From: Polaribacter butkevichii
Lineage (GTDB): Bacteria; Bacteroidota; Bacteroidia; Flavobacteriales; Flavobacteriaceae
Length of the DNA: 64,000 nucleotides
Assembly: GCF_038024105.1 (NCBI RefSeq)
Contig: NZ_CP150661.1
Location: 744,001 to 808,000 of the forward strand
Direction: 5' to 3'
In this document: positions 32,215 to 55,371 of the stretch, one piece after another
Layout of the letters: every line of letters begins with the position of its first letter
Numbering within the stretch: the stretch's first letter is position 1
Notes under the pieces: model-generated
The model's database searches: none
What the model saw: the letters and a program-made list of their open reading frames with translations, nothing else
What the model was told of the DNA's origin: nothing
Program-made: the position numbers and the translations under genes

Positions 32215-32386
32215 GGCGTTCCCTAAAAAGGTCGGGCTTTACGCTACAATCTTTTTTTTGTATCAGTCATTGTTAAGATTTTTTTTTTACTACCTATGGC
32301 AATCTCAATTTAATAAAAAGATTGCTTCGTTCCTCGCAATGATACTTTAAACAAAAAAAAGGATTTTCACTTCAATCCCTAACGCA
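32215..32386 (-). repeat. Structured repeat element interrupted by a second repeat
   Basis: Read on the minus strand it starts GCGTTAGGGATTGAAGTG and ends with AAGATTGTAGCGTAAAGCCCGACC and TTTTTAGGG, the same order as at 3615-3715. In its middle (32296-32344) lies a copy of the GCAATCT/CGAAGC palindromic family (ATTGCTTCGTTCCTCGCAAT). The element is therefore about 70 bp longer than the uninterrupted copy. Confidence 0.65.
32296..32344 (-). repeat. CGAAGCAATCT palindromic repeat, nested copy
   Basis: AGATTGCTTCGTTCCTCGCAATGA at the right and GGCAATCTCAA at the left match the ends of the palindromic family also found at 32481-32535, 43518-43591, 53937-54000 and 54389-54461. Here it lies inside another repeat. 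Confidence 0.65.
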
Positions 32387-32480: not shown

Positions 32481-32535
32481 TCTGTGACCATCTCAATTTT
32501 ATTAAAGAAATTGTTTCGTTCCTCGTAATGACATT
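32481..32535 (-). repeat. CGAAGCAATCT palindromic repeat, degraded copy
   Basis: AAATTGTTTCGTTCCTCGTAATGACA at the right with GTGACCATCTCAATTTT at the left is a mutated copy of the same palindromic family, 140 bp from the nested copy. Confidence 0.55.
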
Positions 32536-32542
32536 TAATAAG

Positions 32543-41394: not shown

Positions 41395-43770
41395 ATGAAA
41401 GTCTGTATTGCCGAGAAACCAAGTGTAGCAAGAGAAATTGCTAATATTCTAGGAGCCAACACAAAACGTGATGGCTACTACGAAGGAAATGGTTATGCGG
41501 TAACTTATACATTCGGACATTTATGTACTCTTTTAGAGCCTAAAGATTACAAACCGCATTGGAAAAGTTGGGATTTGAACAATTTACCAATGCTTCCAGA
41601 GCGTTTTGATACCAAAGTGACAGGCGACGCAGGAATTAGAAAACAATTTAATATTGTAAAATCCTTATTTGATAAAGCAGATGTTGTTATCAATTGTGGG
41701 GATGCTGGAACAGAAGGAGAACTCATACAACGTTGGGTAATTAACCAATGTGGCTATAAGGGAGAAGTACAACGCTTATGGATTTCATCCTTAACAGAAG
41801 AAGCCATTAAAGAAGGTTTTAATAATTTAAAACCTGCAGAAAAATATGATAACTTGTATTATGCAGGATATTCTAGAGCTATTGGTGATTGGTTATTAGG
41901 TTTAAACGCAACCCGTTTATACACCGTAAAATTTGGCGGATTTAAACAAGTTTTATCAGTTGGTAGAGTCCAAACTCCTACTCTAGCCATGTTGGTCAAT
42001 CGTTTTGTTGAAATTCAGAATTTTAAGCCACAACCTTATTGGGAATTACAAACCACATATAGAAATACGCTTTTTAATTATGAGGATGGTCGTTTTTTAA
42101 AACAAGAAGACGGACAAGTTTTAGCTAATAAAGTAAAAGAATCAGATTTCGAAATTGTTTCTGTTACCAAAAAGAAAGGAAAAGAATACGCTCCTAAATT
42201 GTTTGATTTAACAGGTTTACAGGTATATTGTAATAATAAATTCGGATTTTCTGCTGATGAAACACTAAAAATGGTTCAGAAGTTATATGAGATGAAAGTA
42301 GTTACATATCCAAGGGTTGATACTACTTTTCTACCCAATGATGTGTATCCAAAAATTGGAGGAATTTTATCGAAATTAACTAATTATAGTGCATTAACTC
42401 AGCCTCTTTTAGGAAGTAAAATAAAGAAATCGAAACGTGTTTTTGATGATAAAAAAGTAACCGATCACCACGCTATTATACCTACCGGAATTCAAGGAAA
42501 TTTACAATACAACCAACAACAAGTCTATGATATTATTACCCGAAGATTTATTGGGGTTTTTTATCCCGATTCTGATGTTTCTAATACTTCAGTAATTGGT
42601 AAAGCTGCAGATGTTCCTTTTAAAACTAGCGGAAAAGAAATTTTAACCAAAGGTTGGCGTGTTGCTTTTGAAACGAAAGAAAGCAAAATTAAAAAGGAAT
42701 TAAACGAGCAAATGACCTTACCTTCTTTTGTGAAAGGAGAAAAAGGTACGCACGAACCTTCGTTTTTAGAAAAGGAAACCAAACCACCAAGAAATTTTAC
42801 AGAAGCTAGTTTATTACGTGCCATGGAAACCGCAGGTAAACAAGTAGATGATGATGAAATGCGTGAGTTGATGAAAGAAAACGGAATTGGAAGACCATCT
42901 ACAAGGGCAAGTATTATAGAAACTTTATTCCGAAGAAAATATATTGAGCGTAAAAAGAAATTAGTTTTACCAACCCAAACCGGAATTGATTTAATTAATA
43001 TTATTGACAATGAATTATTAAAGTCTGCGGAGTTAACTGGTCGTTGGGAAAAACGTTTAAAAGAAATTGAACGAGGAGAATTTAATGCCGGGACCTTTAT
43101 AAATAATATGAAGAAAATGGTAGATGAATTGGTGTATGAAGTACGTTCTAACACTTCTAAAAAAAGAATTTCTTCGAACTCAACTGTCGCTGCTAATGGA
43201 ACCAAGCAATCTGCTATTCCAAAACCTAAAAAAGCAATAACAAAAAAACAAGTTGCCGGAAAAACATGTCCTAAATGTAAAAAAGGAACTATTTTAAAAG
43301 GTTCTTCTGCATTTGGGTGTTCTGAATATAAAAATAATTGCGATTTAAAAATTCCTTTTGAAATCTACGGAAAGAAAGTTTCTGAAAATCAATTGATACG
43401 ATTGATAGATAAGGGCTGTACAACCAATTTAAAAGGTTTTACAACAGGTGCAGGTACAATTGAAGGTTTGATACGTTTTGATGATAATTTTACTTTAAAA
43501 TTAGAGCCAAAACAAACTGTCATTGCGAGTGAAACGAAGCAATCTGTTAATAATAATGAGATTACTTCGTCGAAAACTCCTCGTAATGAAAGTGATAAAA
43601 TTATTTGCCCAAAATGTAAAAAAGGTAGTATTTTAAAAGGAAAAACTGCTTATGGTTGTTCTAATTACAAGAATGGTTGCGATTTTGTTTTTACGTTTGA
43701 AAACATCAAAAAAATAGCCAACGGTAAACCATTGACTAAAGAATTGGTTATAAAAATTATCAGTAGCTAG
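41395..43770 (+). CDS. topB: DNA topoisomerase III (type IA) with an embedded repeat peptide
   Basis: This 791-residue type IA topoisomerase relaxes and decatenates DNA. The Toprim domain has CIAEKPSVAREIANILG at the N-terminus and NCGDAGTEGELIQ near 100-112. The active-site Tyr is in VTYPRVDTTFLP (about 305), and ENGIGRPSTRASIIE follows near 500. Two C-terminal zinc-finger-like units (CPKCKKGTILKGSSAFGC and CPKCKKGSILKGKTAYGC) end the protein. Between them lies a foreign stretch of about 25 residues encoded by a palindromic DNA repeat (43518-43591): VIASETKQSV, then EITSSKTPRNE. The insertion falls in a linker and keeps the frame, so the enzyme is probably active. Confidence 0.92.
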   Translation: MKVCIAEKPSVAREIANILGANTKRDGYYEGNGYAVTYTFGHLCTLLEPKDYKPHWKSWDLNNLPMLPERFDTKVTGDAGIRKQFNIVKSLFDKADVVINCGDAGTEGELIQRWVINQCGYKGEVQRLWISSLTEEAIKEGFNNLKPAEKYDNLYYAGYSRAIGDWLLGLNATRLYTVKFGGFKQVLSVGRVQTPTLAMLVNRFVEIQNFKPQPYWELQTTYRNTLFNYEDGRFLKQEDGQVLANKVKESDFEIVSVTKKKGKEYAPKLFDLTGLQVYCNNKFGFSADETLKMVQKLYEMKVVTYPRVDTTFLPNDVYPKIGGILSKLTNYSALTQPLLGSKIKKSKRVFDDKKVTDHHAIIPTGIQGNLQYNQQQVYDIITRRFIGVFYPDSDVSNTSVIGKAADVPFKTSGKEILTKGWRVAFETKESKIKKELNEQMTLPSFVKGEKGTHEPSFLEKETKPPRNFTEASLLRAMETAGKQVDDDEMRELMKENGIGRPSTRASIIETLFRRKYIERKKKLVLPTQTGIDLINIIDNELLKSAELTGRWEKRLKEIERGEFNAGTFINNMKKMVDELVYEVRSNTSKKRISSNSTVAANGTKQSAIPKPKKAITKKQVAGKTCPKCKKGTILKGSSAFGCSEYKNNCDLKIPFEIYGKKVSENQLIRLIDKGCTTNLKGFTTGAGTIEGLIRFDDNFTLKLEPKQTVIASETKQSVNNNEITSSKTPRNESDKIICPKCKKGSILKGKTAYGCSNYKNGCDFVFTFENIKKIANGKPLTKELVIKIISS
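43518..43591 (+). repeat. CGAAGCAATCT palindromic repeat inserted in frame in topB
   Basis: TGTCATTGCGAG with GAAACGAAGCAATCT at the left and AGATTACTTCGTCG with CTCCTCGTAATGA at the right are imperfect complements, forming a ~74-bp palindrome. It matches non-coding copies at 32296-32344 and 53937-54000 and a coding copy at 54389-54461. Confidence 0.85.
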
Positions 43771-43784
43771 AGTTTTCTAACTAC

Positions 43785-44116
43785 TGTCATTTCGAAATGA
43801 GCGTTTTAGCGATTGAAAAATCAAACTAAAATTTTCACATAATGAGATTCCTCAATTCTTCGGAATGACAAAACGTTCTTTCATATAATTACCATAATAA
43901 ATCCAATACTGTCATTTCGAAATAAGCGTTTTAGCTATTGAGAAATCAAACTAAAATTTTACACAATGAGATTCCTCAATTCTTCGGAATGACAAAATTT
44001 GTTTTCACTTAACCACTACAATAAACATTCAACTGTCATTTCGAAATGAGTTTTTTTACGATTGAGAAATCTTTTCAATACATCACAATTAGATTCCATA
44101 ATTCTTCGGAATGACA
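43785..44116. repeat. Three tandem TGTCATTTCGAA...GGAATGACA palindromes
   Basis: Copies lie at 43785-43870, 43910-43994 and 44034-44116, starting 125 and 124 bp apart. Each begins TGTCATTTCGAAAT and ends TTCTTCGGAATGACA, which pair with one G-U, with ATTGA(A/G)AAATC inside. The ~40-bp spacers differ partly. They fill the 356-bp convergent gap between topB and the acyl-CoA synthetase gene. They could act as terminators or mRNA-stabilising hairpins. Confidence 0.85.
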
Positions 44117-44126
44117 AAATGTATAT

Positions 44127-45926
44127 TTATTCAGCATACATTTTATCAATAAGTTCTTTGTATTTTTTTTGAATTACTTTTCGTTTTAGTTTTAAGGTAG
44201 CTGTAATTTCTCCTGCTTCAATACTAAATTCTTTTGGTAATAAGGTAAATTTCTTAATTTTTTCAAACTTAGAAAATTCTTTTTGTAACTCTTCAAAACG
44301 TTTTTCGAACATCGTTTTAATTTGATTATTATTAATCAAATCTTCTATATCTTTAAAACTAATTTTATGCTCTTCTGCATATTTTTTAATATTCTCAAAA
44401 CTTGGCACTGCTAAAGCCGTTACATATTTTTGTTGATCTCCAATAACCGCAATTTGCTCAATAAAAGAATCGCTAATTAAAGCTGTTTCTAATTTTTGAG
44501 GAGCAATGTATTTTCCTCCAGAAGTTTTCATTAAATCTTTAATTCTATCGGTTATCACTAAATTACCATATGAATCAATTTTACCAGCATCTCCTGTTTT
44601 AAACCAACCATCTTCATCAAATACTTCTGCGGTTGCTTCTGGTTTTTTATAATACCCTTTCATAACCCCTGGTCCTTTTACCAAAACTTCGTTATTATTA
44701 CCAATTTTAATCTCTGAGCCAATAATTGGTTTTCCCGCAGAATTAAATTGGAAATAATGGTCTCCAAACAACGTAACTGTTGCCGTGGTTTCTGTTAAAC
44801 CATAACCACATTTTATGTTTAATGCAAATGAATGAAAAAACGAAACTAAATCTGGACCTAAAGGTGCACCACCACAAGGCATAAATTTTATATTACCACC
44901 AAATACATCACGTAATTTACTTAACACTAATTTATCGGCAATTTTATATTTTAGCTTTACCAGTAAAGGTACTTTTTTATTAAAACGACGGTATTTGTTA
45001 TGATATTTATTACCAATCCCTAAAGCCCAACTTGCTAATTTCATTTTAGTAGGAGAAGCTTCTTTTCTTTTTTCTTGAATGGCTGTAAAAATTTTCTCAA
45101 AAATTCTTGGAACCGTACACATTAAAGTGGGCTTTACCTCTTTTAAAGTATCGGCTATTTTTTTAGGATCTTGGTTAAAATAAACTTGTATTCCTTGTTG
45201 TAAGCAAAAAAACACCCAACTACGTTCGTAAATATGACTTAAAGGTAAAAAACTTAAAGAAACATCATTTTCATCTACATCTAACTCGGCTTCATGTACT
45301 TTTAAAGAAGCTGCAAAGTTGTTGTGATCTAACATTACTCCTTTAGGCTCTCCCGTAGTTCCAGAAGTATAAATAATACTAGCTAAATCTGTTAATTCAG
45401 ATTCAAAATAACGTTTTTCTAATGCTGTATCTATACTTTTTGGGAATTCGGCATTTATAAAATCGCTAAAATAAACGGCATTTTTATGATTTCTTAGATC
45501 AACAGTTGGGGTTAAAGCAACTATTAATTTTAAGTATTTATTTTCTTCTGTAATTTGTTCTACTTTATCAAACTCTTCTTGATCACCAACAAAAATTACA
45601 CTAATTTCTGCATCGTTTACAACGTATTCTACTTCTTTTTGAGAGTTGGTTGCGTAAATTGGAATTGTAACAGCTCTTACTCCCATAATTCCAAGATCTG
45701 CAATTATCCATTCTGTCATATTTTGGGCAAAAACACCAATATTATCTTGCTCTTTTATTCCAAAATTAAGTAAAGCCTTTGATACCTGTTGAATTTGGTG
45801 GTAAAAAGAATTCCAAGAAATTCCTTTCCAAGCACTAGAAGCTTCATCTTTGTAAAAAATAGCTTCTTTTGTTGTAAATTTCTTTGTGTTATCTTTTATT
45901 ACTTCTAATAAATGTTTATAATTCAT
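44127..45926 (-). CDS. Long-chain acyl-CoA synthetase (AMP-forming)
   Basis: This 599-residue adenylate-forming enzyme has the AMP-binding P-loop IIYTSGTTGEPKGVM near 170, GYGLTETTATVT near 380, and the hinge GWFKTGDAGKIDSYGNLVITDRIKD near 450. It activates fatty acids as CoA thioesters at the inner face of the membrane. The size and the C-terminal TLKLKRKVIQKKYKELI match the FadD15-like family. The frame is open to 45959, but MNYKHLLEVI at 45926 is the family N-terminus. Confidence 0.9.
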   Translation of the reverse strand: MNYKHLLEVIKDNTKKFTTKEAIFYKDEASSAWKGISWNSFYHQIQQVSKALLNFGIKEQDNIGVFAQNMTEWIIADLGIMGVRAVTIPIYATNSQKEVEYVVNDAEISVIFVGDQEEFDKVEQITEENKYLKLIVALTPTVDLRNHKNAVYFSDFINAEFPKSIDTALEKRYFESELTDLASIIYTSGTTGEPKGVMLDHNNFAASLKVHEAELDVDENDVSLSFLPLSHIYERSWVFFCLQQGIQVYFNQDPKKIADTLKEVKPTLMCTVPRIFEKIFTAIQEKRKEASPTKMKLASWALGIGNKYHNKYRRFNKKVPLLVKLKYKIADKLVLSKLRDVFGGNIKFMPCGGAPLGPDLVSFFHSFALNIKCGYGLTETTATVTLFGDHYFQFNSAGKPIIGSEIKIGNNNEVLVKGPGVMKGYYKKPEATAEVFDEDGWFKTGDAGKIDSYGNLVITDRIKDLMKTSGGKYIAPQKLETALISDSFIEQIAVIGDQQKYVTALAVPSFENIKKYAEEHKISFKDIEDLINNNQIKTMFEKRFEELQKEFSKFEKIKKFTLLPKEFSIEAGEITATLKLKRKVIQKKYKELIDKMYAE

Positions 45927-46158
45927 CTTTCGATTCTTTTTAAAATGTGTATTACACACTCCAAATTTACGAATATTTAAACGGCTTAAACAGAAATACT
46001 CTTTTAGATTTTTAGGTGAAGGTTGTTGTAAAAAAACAAAAACGGATTGTAGCTCTTGTTTCTTTAAAATAATGGTGATGTTGTTTTATAGTTTCTATAA
46101 GAATTGCCAAAGTTGCTCTTTGCTTGCTTTTCTTTACAACTTTAACGGCAAACAAGTC

Positions 46159-46284
46159 TAGCCCTGATTGAACGGTTTGTTTGAGCTCTTTTTTACTGTC
46201 AGTTCGAGTGAATTTTGAAGAATGAAAAATTTGTATCGAGAACAGAAGTAAAAAAAGCGAGTAGTGAAAGCAGGAAATAGCTTC
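46159..46284 (+). ncRNA. Flavobacterial structured element (possible Flavo-1-like RNA), with nested repeat
   Basis: AGCCCTGATTGAACGG at the left and GAGTAGTGAAAGCAGG with AAATAGCT at the right form an outer stem. Inside, CTTTTTTACT (46189-46198) pairs with AGTAAAAAAG (46247-46256). Similar sequences are abundant between genes in flavobacteria. I cannot confirm that this is the described Flavo-1 motif. The apical loop is replaced by a copy of the ACTCGAACTGAC/TCTCGATAC repeat. The remainder of the 366-bp gap (45927-46158) holds nothing I recognise. Confidence 0.5.
46196..46243 (-). repeat. TTCTCGATAC/ACTCGAACTGAC-type repeat nested in a structured element
   Basis: In reverse orientation it reads GTTCTCGATACAAATTTTTC at one end and TTCACTCGAACTGACAG at the other, like the copy at 23908-23955. 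Confidence 0.7.
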
Positions 46285-53898: not shown

Positions 53899-53936
53899 CT
53901 TATATGTTTTTAAAATTTATTATTTTCTTCTTTACA

Positions 53937-54000
53937 AGGAATTTTCGACGAAGCAATCTGTTTATTAATTAAGAGATTGCTTCGTTCCTCGCAATGACAT
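53937..54000 (-). repeat. CGAAGCAATCT palindromic repeat in an operon gap
   Basis: TTTTCGACGAAGCAATCTG and AGATTGCTTCGTTCCTCGC followed by AATGACA form a palindrome in the 122-bp gap between the anti-sigma-like and barrel-protein genes. It is the best-preserved non-coding copy of this family here. Confidence 0.8.
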
Positions 54001-54020
54001 TTTTGTAGTAATAACGTTTA

Positions 54021-54824
54021 CTAATCATTTCTACTTGCAATAGCAGTTGCAATATCTGTTACTCTTTTCTTTAAAGATTTTAAGAAGTTATTCTGAAAAT
54101 CTTCTTCTCCGATTGAGCGTTCTACTTCGGCCAAAATAGCATTCGGATTCACTTTAAGGTTCCCTTTTTTAAGTTCTCCTTTAATGGTTCTTAAAACATC
54201 TTCCCTCGTAATATCATACTTTGCGTAGTATTCTTTTACCTCTGCAGACGAATGTGTTACCGCGAATAACAAATCATCACTATTAATTTTTATGCTACTA
54301 TTTGGGTCTTGTTTTAAGAATTCTTTTTTAATTGTTTTCTCCTTCGTCGGATGATTTTCTGATTTCTCCTCTACTTTAGCTATTACAATGTCATTACGAG
54401 GAGTTTTCGACGAAGTAATCTTATCAATAGAAACAGATTGCTTCACTTTGCTTGCAATAACTCTGCTATTAGACTTTACAATTTGCTTCTCTTCAATTTC
54501 ATCCACTTTAACAATTGCTTTTTCAGTAGGAATCTCATTGATAAATTGATCTATTTTAGTATCAATAGAAATCGTATCAATTGGGTTTTCAACAATAATT
54601 TCTGATGGTTTTACAACTTCATTTTTATTTAAAAACAGAAAACCGACACTAATTAGCAATAAAATACTTGCTGCTACACCTATATAAAAAAACCAACCTT
54701 TTTTCTTTTGTTTTGGTTGTTCATCTAATTGTGATGACAAACGCTCCCAAGCCGAAGCAGATGGATTGATCGTTCTGTGCTGTAACTTATCTTTTATACT
54801 ATTATCTAACTTATTTGTTTTCAT
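54021..54824 (-). CDS. Anti-sigma-factor-like membrane protein with an embedded repeat peptide
   Basis: This 267-residue protein has a cytosolic N-terminus (SAWERLSSQLDEQ), one transmembrane helix at about 44-64, and an extracytoplasmic, disordered-looking linker. It ends with a helical domain (about 190-267). The position, overlapping the ECF sigma gene by 14 bp, and the topology fit an anti-sigma factor, though no zinc-type HxxxCxxC motif is present. Between about residues 122 and 145 it carries VIASKVKQSV then KITSSKTPRND, encoded by the palindromic repeat at 54389-54461. Nearly the same peptide occurs in TopB. Confidence 0.7.
   Translation of the reverse strand: MKTNKLDNSIKDKLQHRTINPSASAWERLSSQLDEQPKQKKKGWFFYIGVAASILLLISVGFLFLNKNEVVKPSEIIVENPIDTISIDTKIDQFINEIPTEKAIVKVDEIEEKQIVKSNSRVIASKVKQSVSIDKITSSKTPRNDIVIAKVEEKSENHPTKEKTIKKEFLKQDPNSSIKINSDDLLFAVTHSSAEVKEYYAKYDITREDVLRTIKGELKKGNLKVNPNAILAEVERSIGEEDFQNNFLKSLKKRVTDIATAIASRND
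54389..54461 (-). repeat. CGAAGCAATCT palindromic repeat inserted in frame in the anti-sigma-like gene
   Basis: On the plus strand it reads TGTCATTACGAGGAG, CGACGAAGTAATCTT, then ACAGATTGCTTC and TTGCAATAAC, an imperfect palindrome. In the gene's frame it yields the same peptide as the topB copy, so both were inserted with the same orientation and phase relative to translation. Confidence 0.85.
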
Positions 54825-55371
54825 GAACTCTTTTATTCATTTTGTAATAATTTTCTTGCAATAATTTACGTGCTTTAAATAATTGCGATTTAGATGTACT
54901 TTCAGAAACGCCTAATTTCTCTGCAATTTCTGAATGTTTATACCCTTCTATGGCGAATAAATTAAACACCATTTTGTAACCTTCTGGCAATTGATCTATC
55001 AATTTCTGAATATCTTCTACCGATGTGTTTTCTAAACTTTCTGTAGCTGCGTCGTTAAAAACAAATTCTTCGTCAGATAGATCGATTAAATTCTTTTTAC
55101 GGAGGTAAGAAATACAAGTGTTTACCATAATTCTGCGAATCCAACCTTCAAAACTACCTTCGTGTTTAAATTTATCTAAGTTGGTAAAAACTTTTAGAAA
55201 CCCTTGTAACATTAAATCTTCTGCGTGATGCAAATCTTTTACATATTGCCTACAAACACCCAACATTTTAGGCGAAAATTGCTCGAACAATTGTTGTTGC
55301 GCTTCTCTATTGTTGTCAATCGCTTTTTTAATTAACGATTTTTCTTTGTTATGTAATGATATAATTTTCAA
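54811..55371 (-). CDS. ECF-type RNA polymerase sigma factor
   Basis: This 186-residue sigma-70 family protein has region 2 (QQQLFEQFSPKMLGVCRQYV then HHAEDLMLQGFLKVF, and FEGWIRRIMVNTCISYLRK) and region 4 (LPEGYKMVFNLFAIEGYKHS and EIAEKLGVSESTSKSQLFKA). It directs polymerase to a regulon probably including its own operon. The overlapping downstream anti-sigma-like gene and the barrel-protein gene support an envelope-signal circuit. A TATATTTG promoter element lies 30 bp upstream. Confidence 0.9.
   Translation of the reverse strand: MKIISLHNKEKSLIKKAIDNNREAQQQLFEQFSPKMLGVCRQYVKDLHHAEDLMLQGFLKVFTNLDKFKHEGSFEGWIRRIMVNTCISYLRKKNLIDLSDEEFVFNDAATESLENTSVEDIQKLIDQLPEGYKMVFNLFAIEGYKHSEIAEKLGVSESTSKSQLFKARKLLQENYYKMNKRVHENK

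Follow-up and report, generated by a model that had tools for sequence, protein, structure and literature searches.

How does one palindromic DNA element come to be read in frame, and in the same phase, within unrelated proteins? The question is raised by the window analyzed here, a 64,000-nt stretch (positions 744001–808000) of the single 4.08-Mb contig of Polaribacter butkevichii (NZ_CP150661.1), in which copies of one repeat lie inside the genes for DNA topoisomerase III (TopB) and for an anti-sigma-like membrane protein (Table 1). The translation of the anti-sigma-like ORF includes RVIASKVKQSVSIDKITSSKTPRND, and that of the topB ORF includes TVIASETKQSVNNNEITSSKTPRNES. According to the original prediction, made from the letters of the window, the two peptides are almost identical and come from the same palindrome in the same orientation relative to translation. 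Its boundaries for the repeat (54389..54461) lie within one base of the core that we set by codon positions, and the two DNA copies are 83% complementary across strands over 76 nt, i.e., they do share their orientation relative to translation. The palindrome is also the same, but by our own count 17 of the 24 core residues are shared, for which "almost identical" is slightly strong. The observation itself is real, goes further than first claimed, and is part of a family-wide phenomenon.

Table 1. Copies of the palindromic element in the window, with their host and neighboring genes (window coordinates).
Feature	Position	Strand	Remarks
Palindromic element in anti-sigma-like gene	54390..54461	−	72 nt = 24 codons, residues 122–145, VIASKVKQSVSIDKITSSKTPRND
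Anti-sigma-like membrane protein, host gene, 267 aa	54021..54824	−	Named from ECF sigma neighbor and layout
ECF sigma factor gene	54811..55371	−	Sigma70_r2, Sigma70_r4_2; directly upstream of anti-sigma-like gene
Palindromic element in topB	43519..43590	+	Residues 709–732, VIASETKQSVNNNEITSSKTPRNE; orientation and phase as in anti-sigma copy
topB, DNA topoisomerase III, host gene, 791 aa	41395..43770	+	Named by NCBIfam/Pfam
Eroded half element in topB, left arm only	43186..43212	+	Within TVAANGTKQSA; phase same as in full copy
Intergenic copy, different arm class	53924..54001	−	25-nt left arm; proposed donor ("53937")
Intergenic single arm, same repeat family	32310..32348	−	
Second intergenic single arm, same repeat family	32499..32537	−	

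Copies and Anatomy of the Element in the Window Genome

A BLAST search of the 4.08-Mb genome with the 80-nt element found 46 places at E ≤ 1 (best non-self match, 5.1e-17). A covariance model built from 11 copies, applied to 150 of 7632 first-look candidates, gave 123 matches at E ≤ 1; these merged to ∼69 distinct places, an approximate figure in which the weakest may be chance matches. Given the numbers of BLAST places and covariance-model matches, the repeat is not a product of chance. Fifteen of the 69 places belong to one dense palindrome array (G000:C1:650386-653340, L126). When the 69 places and nine weaker BLAST places (78 in all) were checked for ORFs of at least 100 aa, 71 had no such ORF, two only touched the start of an opposite-strand ORF, and two were chance-like matches of 20 and 21 nt. 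The remaining three copies lay wholly inside long ORFs, namely TopB, the anti-sigma-like protein, and an ORF of 562 aa that contains TPP-enzyme domains and by eye resembles the MenD of a relative (G044). Orientation and phase were identical in all three, in a survey free of the query bias of the frame-specific searches described below (n = 3). Many intergenic copies accompanied by some intragenic ones (here 69 places, three of them in long ORFs) are also what is found for RPE-type palindromes.

The element consists of two inverted arms of unequal length, each starting with GTCATT and ending with AATCT, with a short variable loop between them. The left end reads (C/T)GTCATT in 53 of 69 copies and the right end AATGAC(A/G) in 53 of 69, and 46 of 69 copies are head-to-head dimers with GTCATT on the left and AATGAC on the right. 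Left arms measured 25 nt in 29 of the 69 copies, 26 nt in 11, 27 nt in nine, and other lengths in nine, with 11 not measurable. The 27-nt left arm characterized three of three genic vs. six of 66 non-genic copies (Fisher p 0.0016, for a class picked after looking); conversely, three of the nine copies with this arm are genic vs. none of the other 60. Arms of exactly 27 + 32 nt occur in four copies of this genome, the three genic ones and an intergenic one whose loop introduces a stop and shifts the frame. Among the non-genic copies, zero to two of the six frames are open in 65 of 66 (maximum three), and the reading used in the genes is open in ∼8 of 66, an indicative figure.

Five copies folded as hairpins gave −14 to −33 kcal/mol (LeuRS −32.9, TopB −23.2). 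For the anti-sigma copy (−15.6 kcal/mol) 12 of 200 shuffled sequences folded as well, and for the PurL copy (−14.0 kcal/mol) 21 of 200. Of four single arms folded, those of 25 and 27 nt paired over 5 bp (ATTGC/GCAAT), enclosing loops of 10 and 12 nt, respectively; the 32-nt arm formed only 3 bp, at another place, and the 40-nt arm a longer interrupted stem. An Rfam search over the repeats returned no match at E ≤ 0.1. Elsewhere in the window, three tandem ∼124-nt units of another GTCATTTCG palindrome lie directly 3′ of the topB stop codon (43782–44127), and positions 46156–46281 have a sub-threshold Rfam match to Flavo-1 RNA (28.4 bits vs. a cut-off of 42).

No transposase tied to the element was found in the window genome. 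The idea of a RAYT as mobilizer found no support: the genome has two Y1_Tnp genes (loci L315 and L314), each surrounded by palindromes of its own that are not this element. A cognate RAYT with this repeat on its flanks, the feature by which REPINs are recognized, was not found, and the absence of a repeat-flanked RAYT is what is described for CGTC-REPs. Locus L315 adjoins near-identical 300-nt units 352 nt apart. The TopB copy had no match among plasmids and one 26-nt match among phages, which gives no support to its carriage by either.

Reading Phase and Host Genes in Relatives

Four of the six possible frames of the TopB copy are stop-free: frame A, which is the VIA...PRND reading, frame B, and the antisense frames C and D. 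One set of 97 genus genomes served for the searches with all four. With frame A, 31 matches were obtained in 20 genomes, 31 of 31 lying in stop-free frames of at least 271 aa. Frame B yielded 29 matches in open frames of up to 71 aa, frame C 44 (up to 116 aa), and frame D 42, four of which had open frames of at least 150 aa (152, 188, 190, and 205 aa); all four coincide with frame-A matches and so run antisense to the host gene. Many of the frame-B, -C, and -D matches are in fact frame-A places read in another frame, and at the other places no open frame exceeds 135 aa; across the 97 genomes, not one match in these three frames is in the frame of a host gene. When the search was widened to 249 genomes of the family, frame A matched 14 times, in 11 genomes; three of these matches had been counted before, and 14 of 14 lie in frames of at least 271 aa. 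The genus and family searches together thus contain 42 distinct frame-A matches, all in frames of at least 271 aa. Independent in-frame acquisitions in one phase, as originally claimed for two genes, are therefore borne out in the relatives as well as in the three internal copies of the window genome, and the phases are not random among the frames searched.

These 42 matches represent far fewer independent events, because copies that several species have at one site are in part shared by descent. The frame-A queries, being derived from the TopB copy, overlook diverged copies, such as the MenD-like copy of the window genome, so genic copies with other arm lengths could have been missed in the relatives. 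If four phases were equally acceptable, the chance of 13 gene sites agreeing would be ∼6e-8 (4^-12, with sites counted by eye). The one-phase rule is demonstrated for this element only, since a different palindrome in the PurL of G051 and G005 uses another phase.

The original prediction also described the chosen reading as stop-free and hydrophilic. This agrees with our calculation: the frame-A peptide is neutral and hydrophilic (GRAVY −1.22, charge 0), whereas the three other open readings are basic or hydrophobic (GRAVY/charge +0.47/+9, −0.14/+5, and +1.33/−2).

We read 41 of the 42 copies: all 11 that were new in the family search and, since one genus match had no locus, 30 of the 31 from the genus. 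By our own count they fall in 13 gene sites, three in TopB and ten in other genes: LeuRS, PurL, PrmC, HemW, GltX, MenD, Mfd, a Type ISP protein, a mannosyltransferase-like membrane protein, and the anti-sigma-like protein. One of the TopB sites, matched by eye, is that of the eroded half element in the window, which corresponds to full copies in G093, G015, G085, and G006. Ten representative hosts were named with NCBIfam and Pfam (PrmC, PurL or FGAM synthase, LeuRS, GltX, MenD, HemW, Mfd, TopB, a Type ISP specificity-domain protein, and the membrane protein); the Mfd representative is a partial ORF scoring 694.8 bits, below the cut-off of 800, and the resemblance of the membrane protein to mannosyltransferases likewise scores below cut-off. 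Protein database searches with the peptide region, in which shared five-residue words were required, returned one of 112 and 16 of 17 candidates; by their Pfam sets, the latter 16 were 15 topoisomerases and one FGAM-synthase-like protein. In 40 of the 41 genic copies the arms fit a pattern that requires a nine-codon left arm, and by eye the remaining copy has nine codons too. The loops of the 40 copies analyzed are stop-free and measure 6, 9, or 12 nt. As with RPE-type elements, these are stop-free, in-frame insertions in unrelated conserved genes. The element sits in unrelated, often essential genes that it leaves unbroken, and its peptide is in all likelihood translated and presumably harmless.

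Insertion Sites in Orthologous Proteins

The placement of both window copies in linkers, also part of the original prediction, is consistent with what we found. In a structure model of the anti-sigma-like protein, poor as a whole (mean pLDDT 51), the insert lies within low-confidence coil (residues 101–169), and the TopB copy lies by eye between CPKCKKG motifs. The LeuRS site resembles a turn and the PurL site a variable linker, both judged from alignment only. The 267-aa anti-sigma-like protein gave no match in a Pfam search. Of the 17 loci in named genomes found with it, 14 were from Polaribacter; its insert occupies a hypervariable linker that differs in most of the orthologues aligned, and most of these are without the peptide. 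We accordingly discarded the reading of the peptide as part of a conserved domain, as no Pfam domain was found and the linker is hypervariable. The C-terminal IASRND of the protein was also dismissed as a repeat remnant, similar ends being present in nearly all relatives aligned.

In a tree built from the flanking protein sequence, the window gene fell into one group (support 0.88) with two genes that bear the insert, those of G044 and L073, and two that have no intact insert, L061 and L062. As the insert is common to related species in this tree, the insertion probably predates the window genome. The L073 locus is at the end of a draft contig, which breaks off within the repeat of its anti-sigma gene. 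The nearby intergenic copy, put forward as a possible donor, is not supported in that role: it belongs to another arm class and is 76% identical over its match vs. 86, 85, and 81% for three other copies, and the insertion looks older than the window genome. An intergenic copy just downstream of the anti-sigma gene is also present in G044 and seemingly in L068 and L066 (three of 15 loci scanned), and the anti-sigma copy may have had a local origin.

For PurL we aligned the best 30 of 93 genomes with a match and told the palindrome families apart by eye. The full element was present in G040 and G015, its left arm only in G043, and an eroded remnant in G098. G080, G096, and G075 carry an arm of another palindrome in the matching phase (GTCATTTCGAGCGCAGTCGAGAAATCT in G096), G082 carries a third palindrome, and G051 and G005 carry a fourth in another phase, while the remaining 20 of the best 30 have different linkers. 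These three further palindrome types are all in frame (loci L256, L279, L283, L258, L268, and L269 for the six genomes).

Among ten LeuRS loci read, the corresponding turn is occupied by the element in G015 and by peptides resembling other palindromes in G011 and G043; it is short in five loci, and in G005 and G004 it carries a long DUF559-like insert, which six further loci also have. PF04480 was confirmed in the LeuRS insert of G000, G005, G093, and G044, and not in G015. This DUF559-like domain of ∼100 aa (e.g., G000:C1:2990864-2991151) sits at the turn that holds palindromes in other species; by eye, inverted repeats flank it in G005, and its nuclease-like residues look eroded in other species. 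A second DUF559-like copy in G044 lies in an 858-aa ORF that by eye resembles RecG. The LeuRS insert suggested a DUF559 nuclease as mobilizer, an idea that is unsupported because G015 has six frame-A matches and no DUF559 match.

Unrelated inserts thus recur at permissive linkers, as in PurL and LeuRS. Insert-free orthologues were seen for the anti-sigma-like protein, PurL, and LeuRS. Comparison with those of PurL and LeuRS resolved neither a target-site duplication nor a clean empty site, and clean boundaries are lacking there because the linkers themselves differ.

Explanations and Known Systems

We consider it highly likely that the element is a selfish palindrome of the REP-dimer type, an analogue of Rickettsia RPE-4/6, that is tolerated in linkers in a single neutral, hydrophilic reading. 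Copies would land in genes and between genes alike; insertion would be blind to phase, and selection would do the filtering. To survive in a gene, a copy would have to keep the frame, bring no stop, fall in a flexible linker, and be read in one phase, giving VIAxxxKQSxxxxEITSSxTPRND. The coding-compatible form would combine a 27-nt left arm (nine codons) with a 32-nt right arm and a loop that makes the total divisible by three. An overlapping explanation, which differs in where the filtering happens, is that the genic copies form a coding-adapted subfamily (27 + 32-nt arms, loop of 3n) spreading from gene to gene, the phase being inherited and not filtered anew. The nine-codon left arm of all 40 genic copies analyzed and the genic position of three of the four exact 27 + 32 copies in the window genome would suit such a lineage. 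We nevertheless rate it as rather unlikely, since the arm-length pattern and the frame-A query themselves demand a nine-codon arm, the form exists outside genes too, as the intergenic copy with its stop and frame-shifting loop demonstrates, and filtering alone would lead to the same outcome.

Usefulness to the host, through the encoded peptide or an mRNA hairpin (e.g., as a regulatory or protease-sensitive linker), might also account for one phase across ∼13 gene sites and for the repeated occupation of the same sites in PurL and LeuRS. Such domestication is decidedly improbable: the peptide is absent from most orthologues aligned, the same linkers hold other palindromes and inserts, and copies erode to half elements. 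Moreover, single changes to codons in the 40 gene copies were synonymous in 51 cases and not in 106, a fraction of 0.325 against an expected 0.268; this excess is slight, which points to weak constraint on the peptide and hence to a repeat driven at the level of DNA. Frame would be irrelevant if ribosomes skipped the hairpin or if it were excised from the RNA, and strong coding-strand hairpins in three of the five copies folded, together with the bypassed palindromes that PMC6649704 describes for yeast mitochondria, would be in keeping with this. A skipped element, however, needs no freedom from stops, no length in multiples of three, and no single phase, and all copies found show these properties, so we regard bypass or removal as very improbable indeed. 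As up to three frames are open in non-genic copies, repeats of this kind can also sit in spurious ORFs, but the hosts here are conserved proteins with homology on both flanks of the insert, and we give chance or annotation error across intergenic repeats next to no weight. Beyond the selfish palindrome favored above, we can propose only tentatively, as a generalization that we think is probably too broad, that GTCAT-tagged inverted REP dimers constitute a widespread gene-invading class (Rickettsia and Flavobacteriaceae) with a coding-adapted gene-to-gene lineage (nine-codon arms, frame-closing right arm, exactly one phase), supplying proteins with new disordered linkers at a handful of permissive sites that are reused by unrelated palindromes.

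Protein-coding palindromes were described as unique to Rickettsia in the title of a 2002 paper by Ogata et al. and afterward turned up in Wolbachia. Rickettsia and Wolbachia are obligate intracellular bacteria, in which genome decay could excuse palindromes in coding sequence; here they occupy housekeeping genes of free-living marine bacteria, for which many genomes and insert-free relatives are on hand for comparison. The single phase amounts to a natural experiment on which peptides protein linkers tolerate.

As described in PMC3767692, the RPEs are palindromes inserted in frame, at exposed sites, in unrelated Rickettsia housekeeping genes, including those for aminoacyl-tRNA synthetases and DNA metabolism; RPE-4/6/7 have ATGAC ends, and different palindrome groups occupy shared sites in orthologues. 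Our element resembles them, by description and not by sequence, in its ATGAC end, its in-frame position in unrelated housekeeping genes, and the presence of different palindromes at the same site in orthologues. It is unlike them in its free-living flavobacterial hosts, in the one phase and orientation of all copies found, and in the 27 + 32-nt arms of all genic copies of the window genome. The unrelated inserts in the PurL and LeuRS linkers also bear on the question, raised for Rickettsia in PMC3767692, of hot spots vs. one common origin.

CGTC-tagged REP dimers, according to PMC3733652, occur in five phyla including the Bacteroidetes, form inserts of 20–30 aa in ORFs (among them DNA repair and tRNA synthetase genes), and have no dedicated transposase. 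Shared with them are the (C/T)GTC outer tag, the AT that comes first in the stem, and the head-to-head inverted dimers; the stem of 5 bp with a loop of 10–12 nt in the 25- and 27-nt arms differs from their 8–9 bp and 4–5 nt, and the tail is CT here vs. CCA (PMC3733652). We do not file the element as a CGTC REP, because the tag and dimer structure agree and the stem and loop lengths do not.

Palindromic elements of Wolbachia, as described in PMC4224334, are in frame and mostly stop-free in the conserved genes addA, addB, and priA; they are alike, by description and not by sequence, as in-frame palindromes in conserved genes of another host. The WPEs of the B. malayi endosymbiont are called unrelated to the Wolbachia CGTC repeats in PMC3733652. 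Bacterial MITEs with ORFs (ERIC and the 107-bp Correia/NEMIS; PMC2229807 and PMC10969869) are likewise small, non-autonomous, and fused in frame through open readings; they differ in being ∼100–200 bp long with terminal inverted repeats, several with target-site duplication and TA ends. Together with PMC2996958, PMC4316617, and PMC2635572, the papers cited here cover in-frame palindromes in Rickettsia and Wolbachia as well as the CGTC-tagged dimers, and the present element works in a like manner. Among the matches listed by our literature search, which took in few subscription papers, there was no report of coding palindromes in Flavobacteriaceae or of a strict phase. The kind of element is already known. 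New compared with these systems are its group of hosts, the restriction to one phase together with the arm class that goes with it, and the fact that unrelated palindromes occupy the same linkers.
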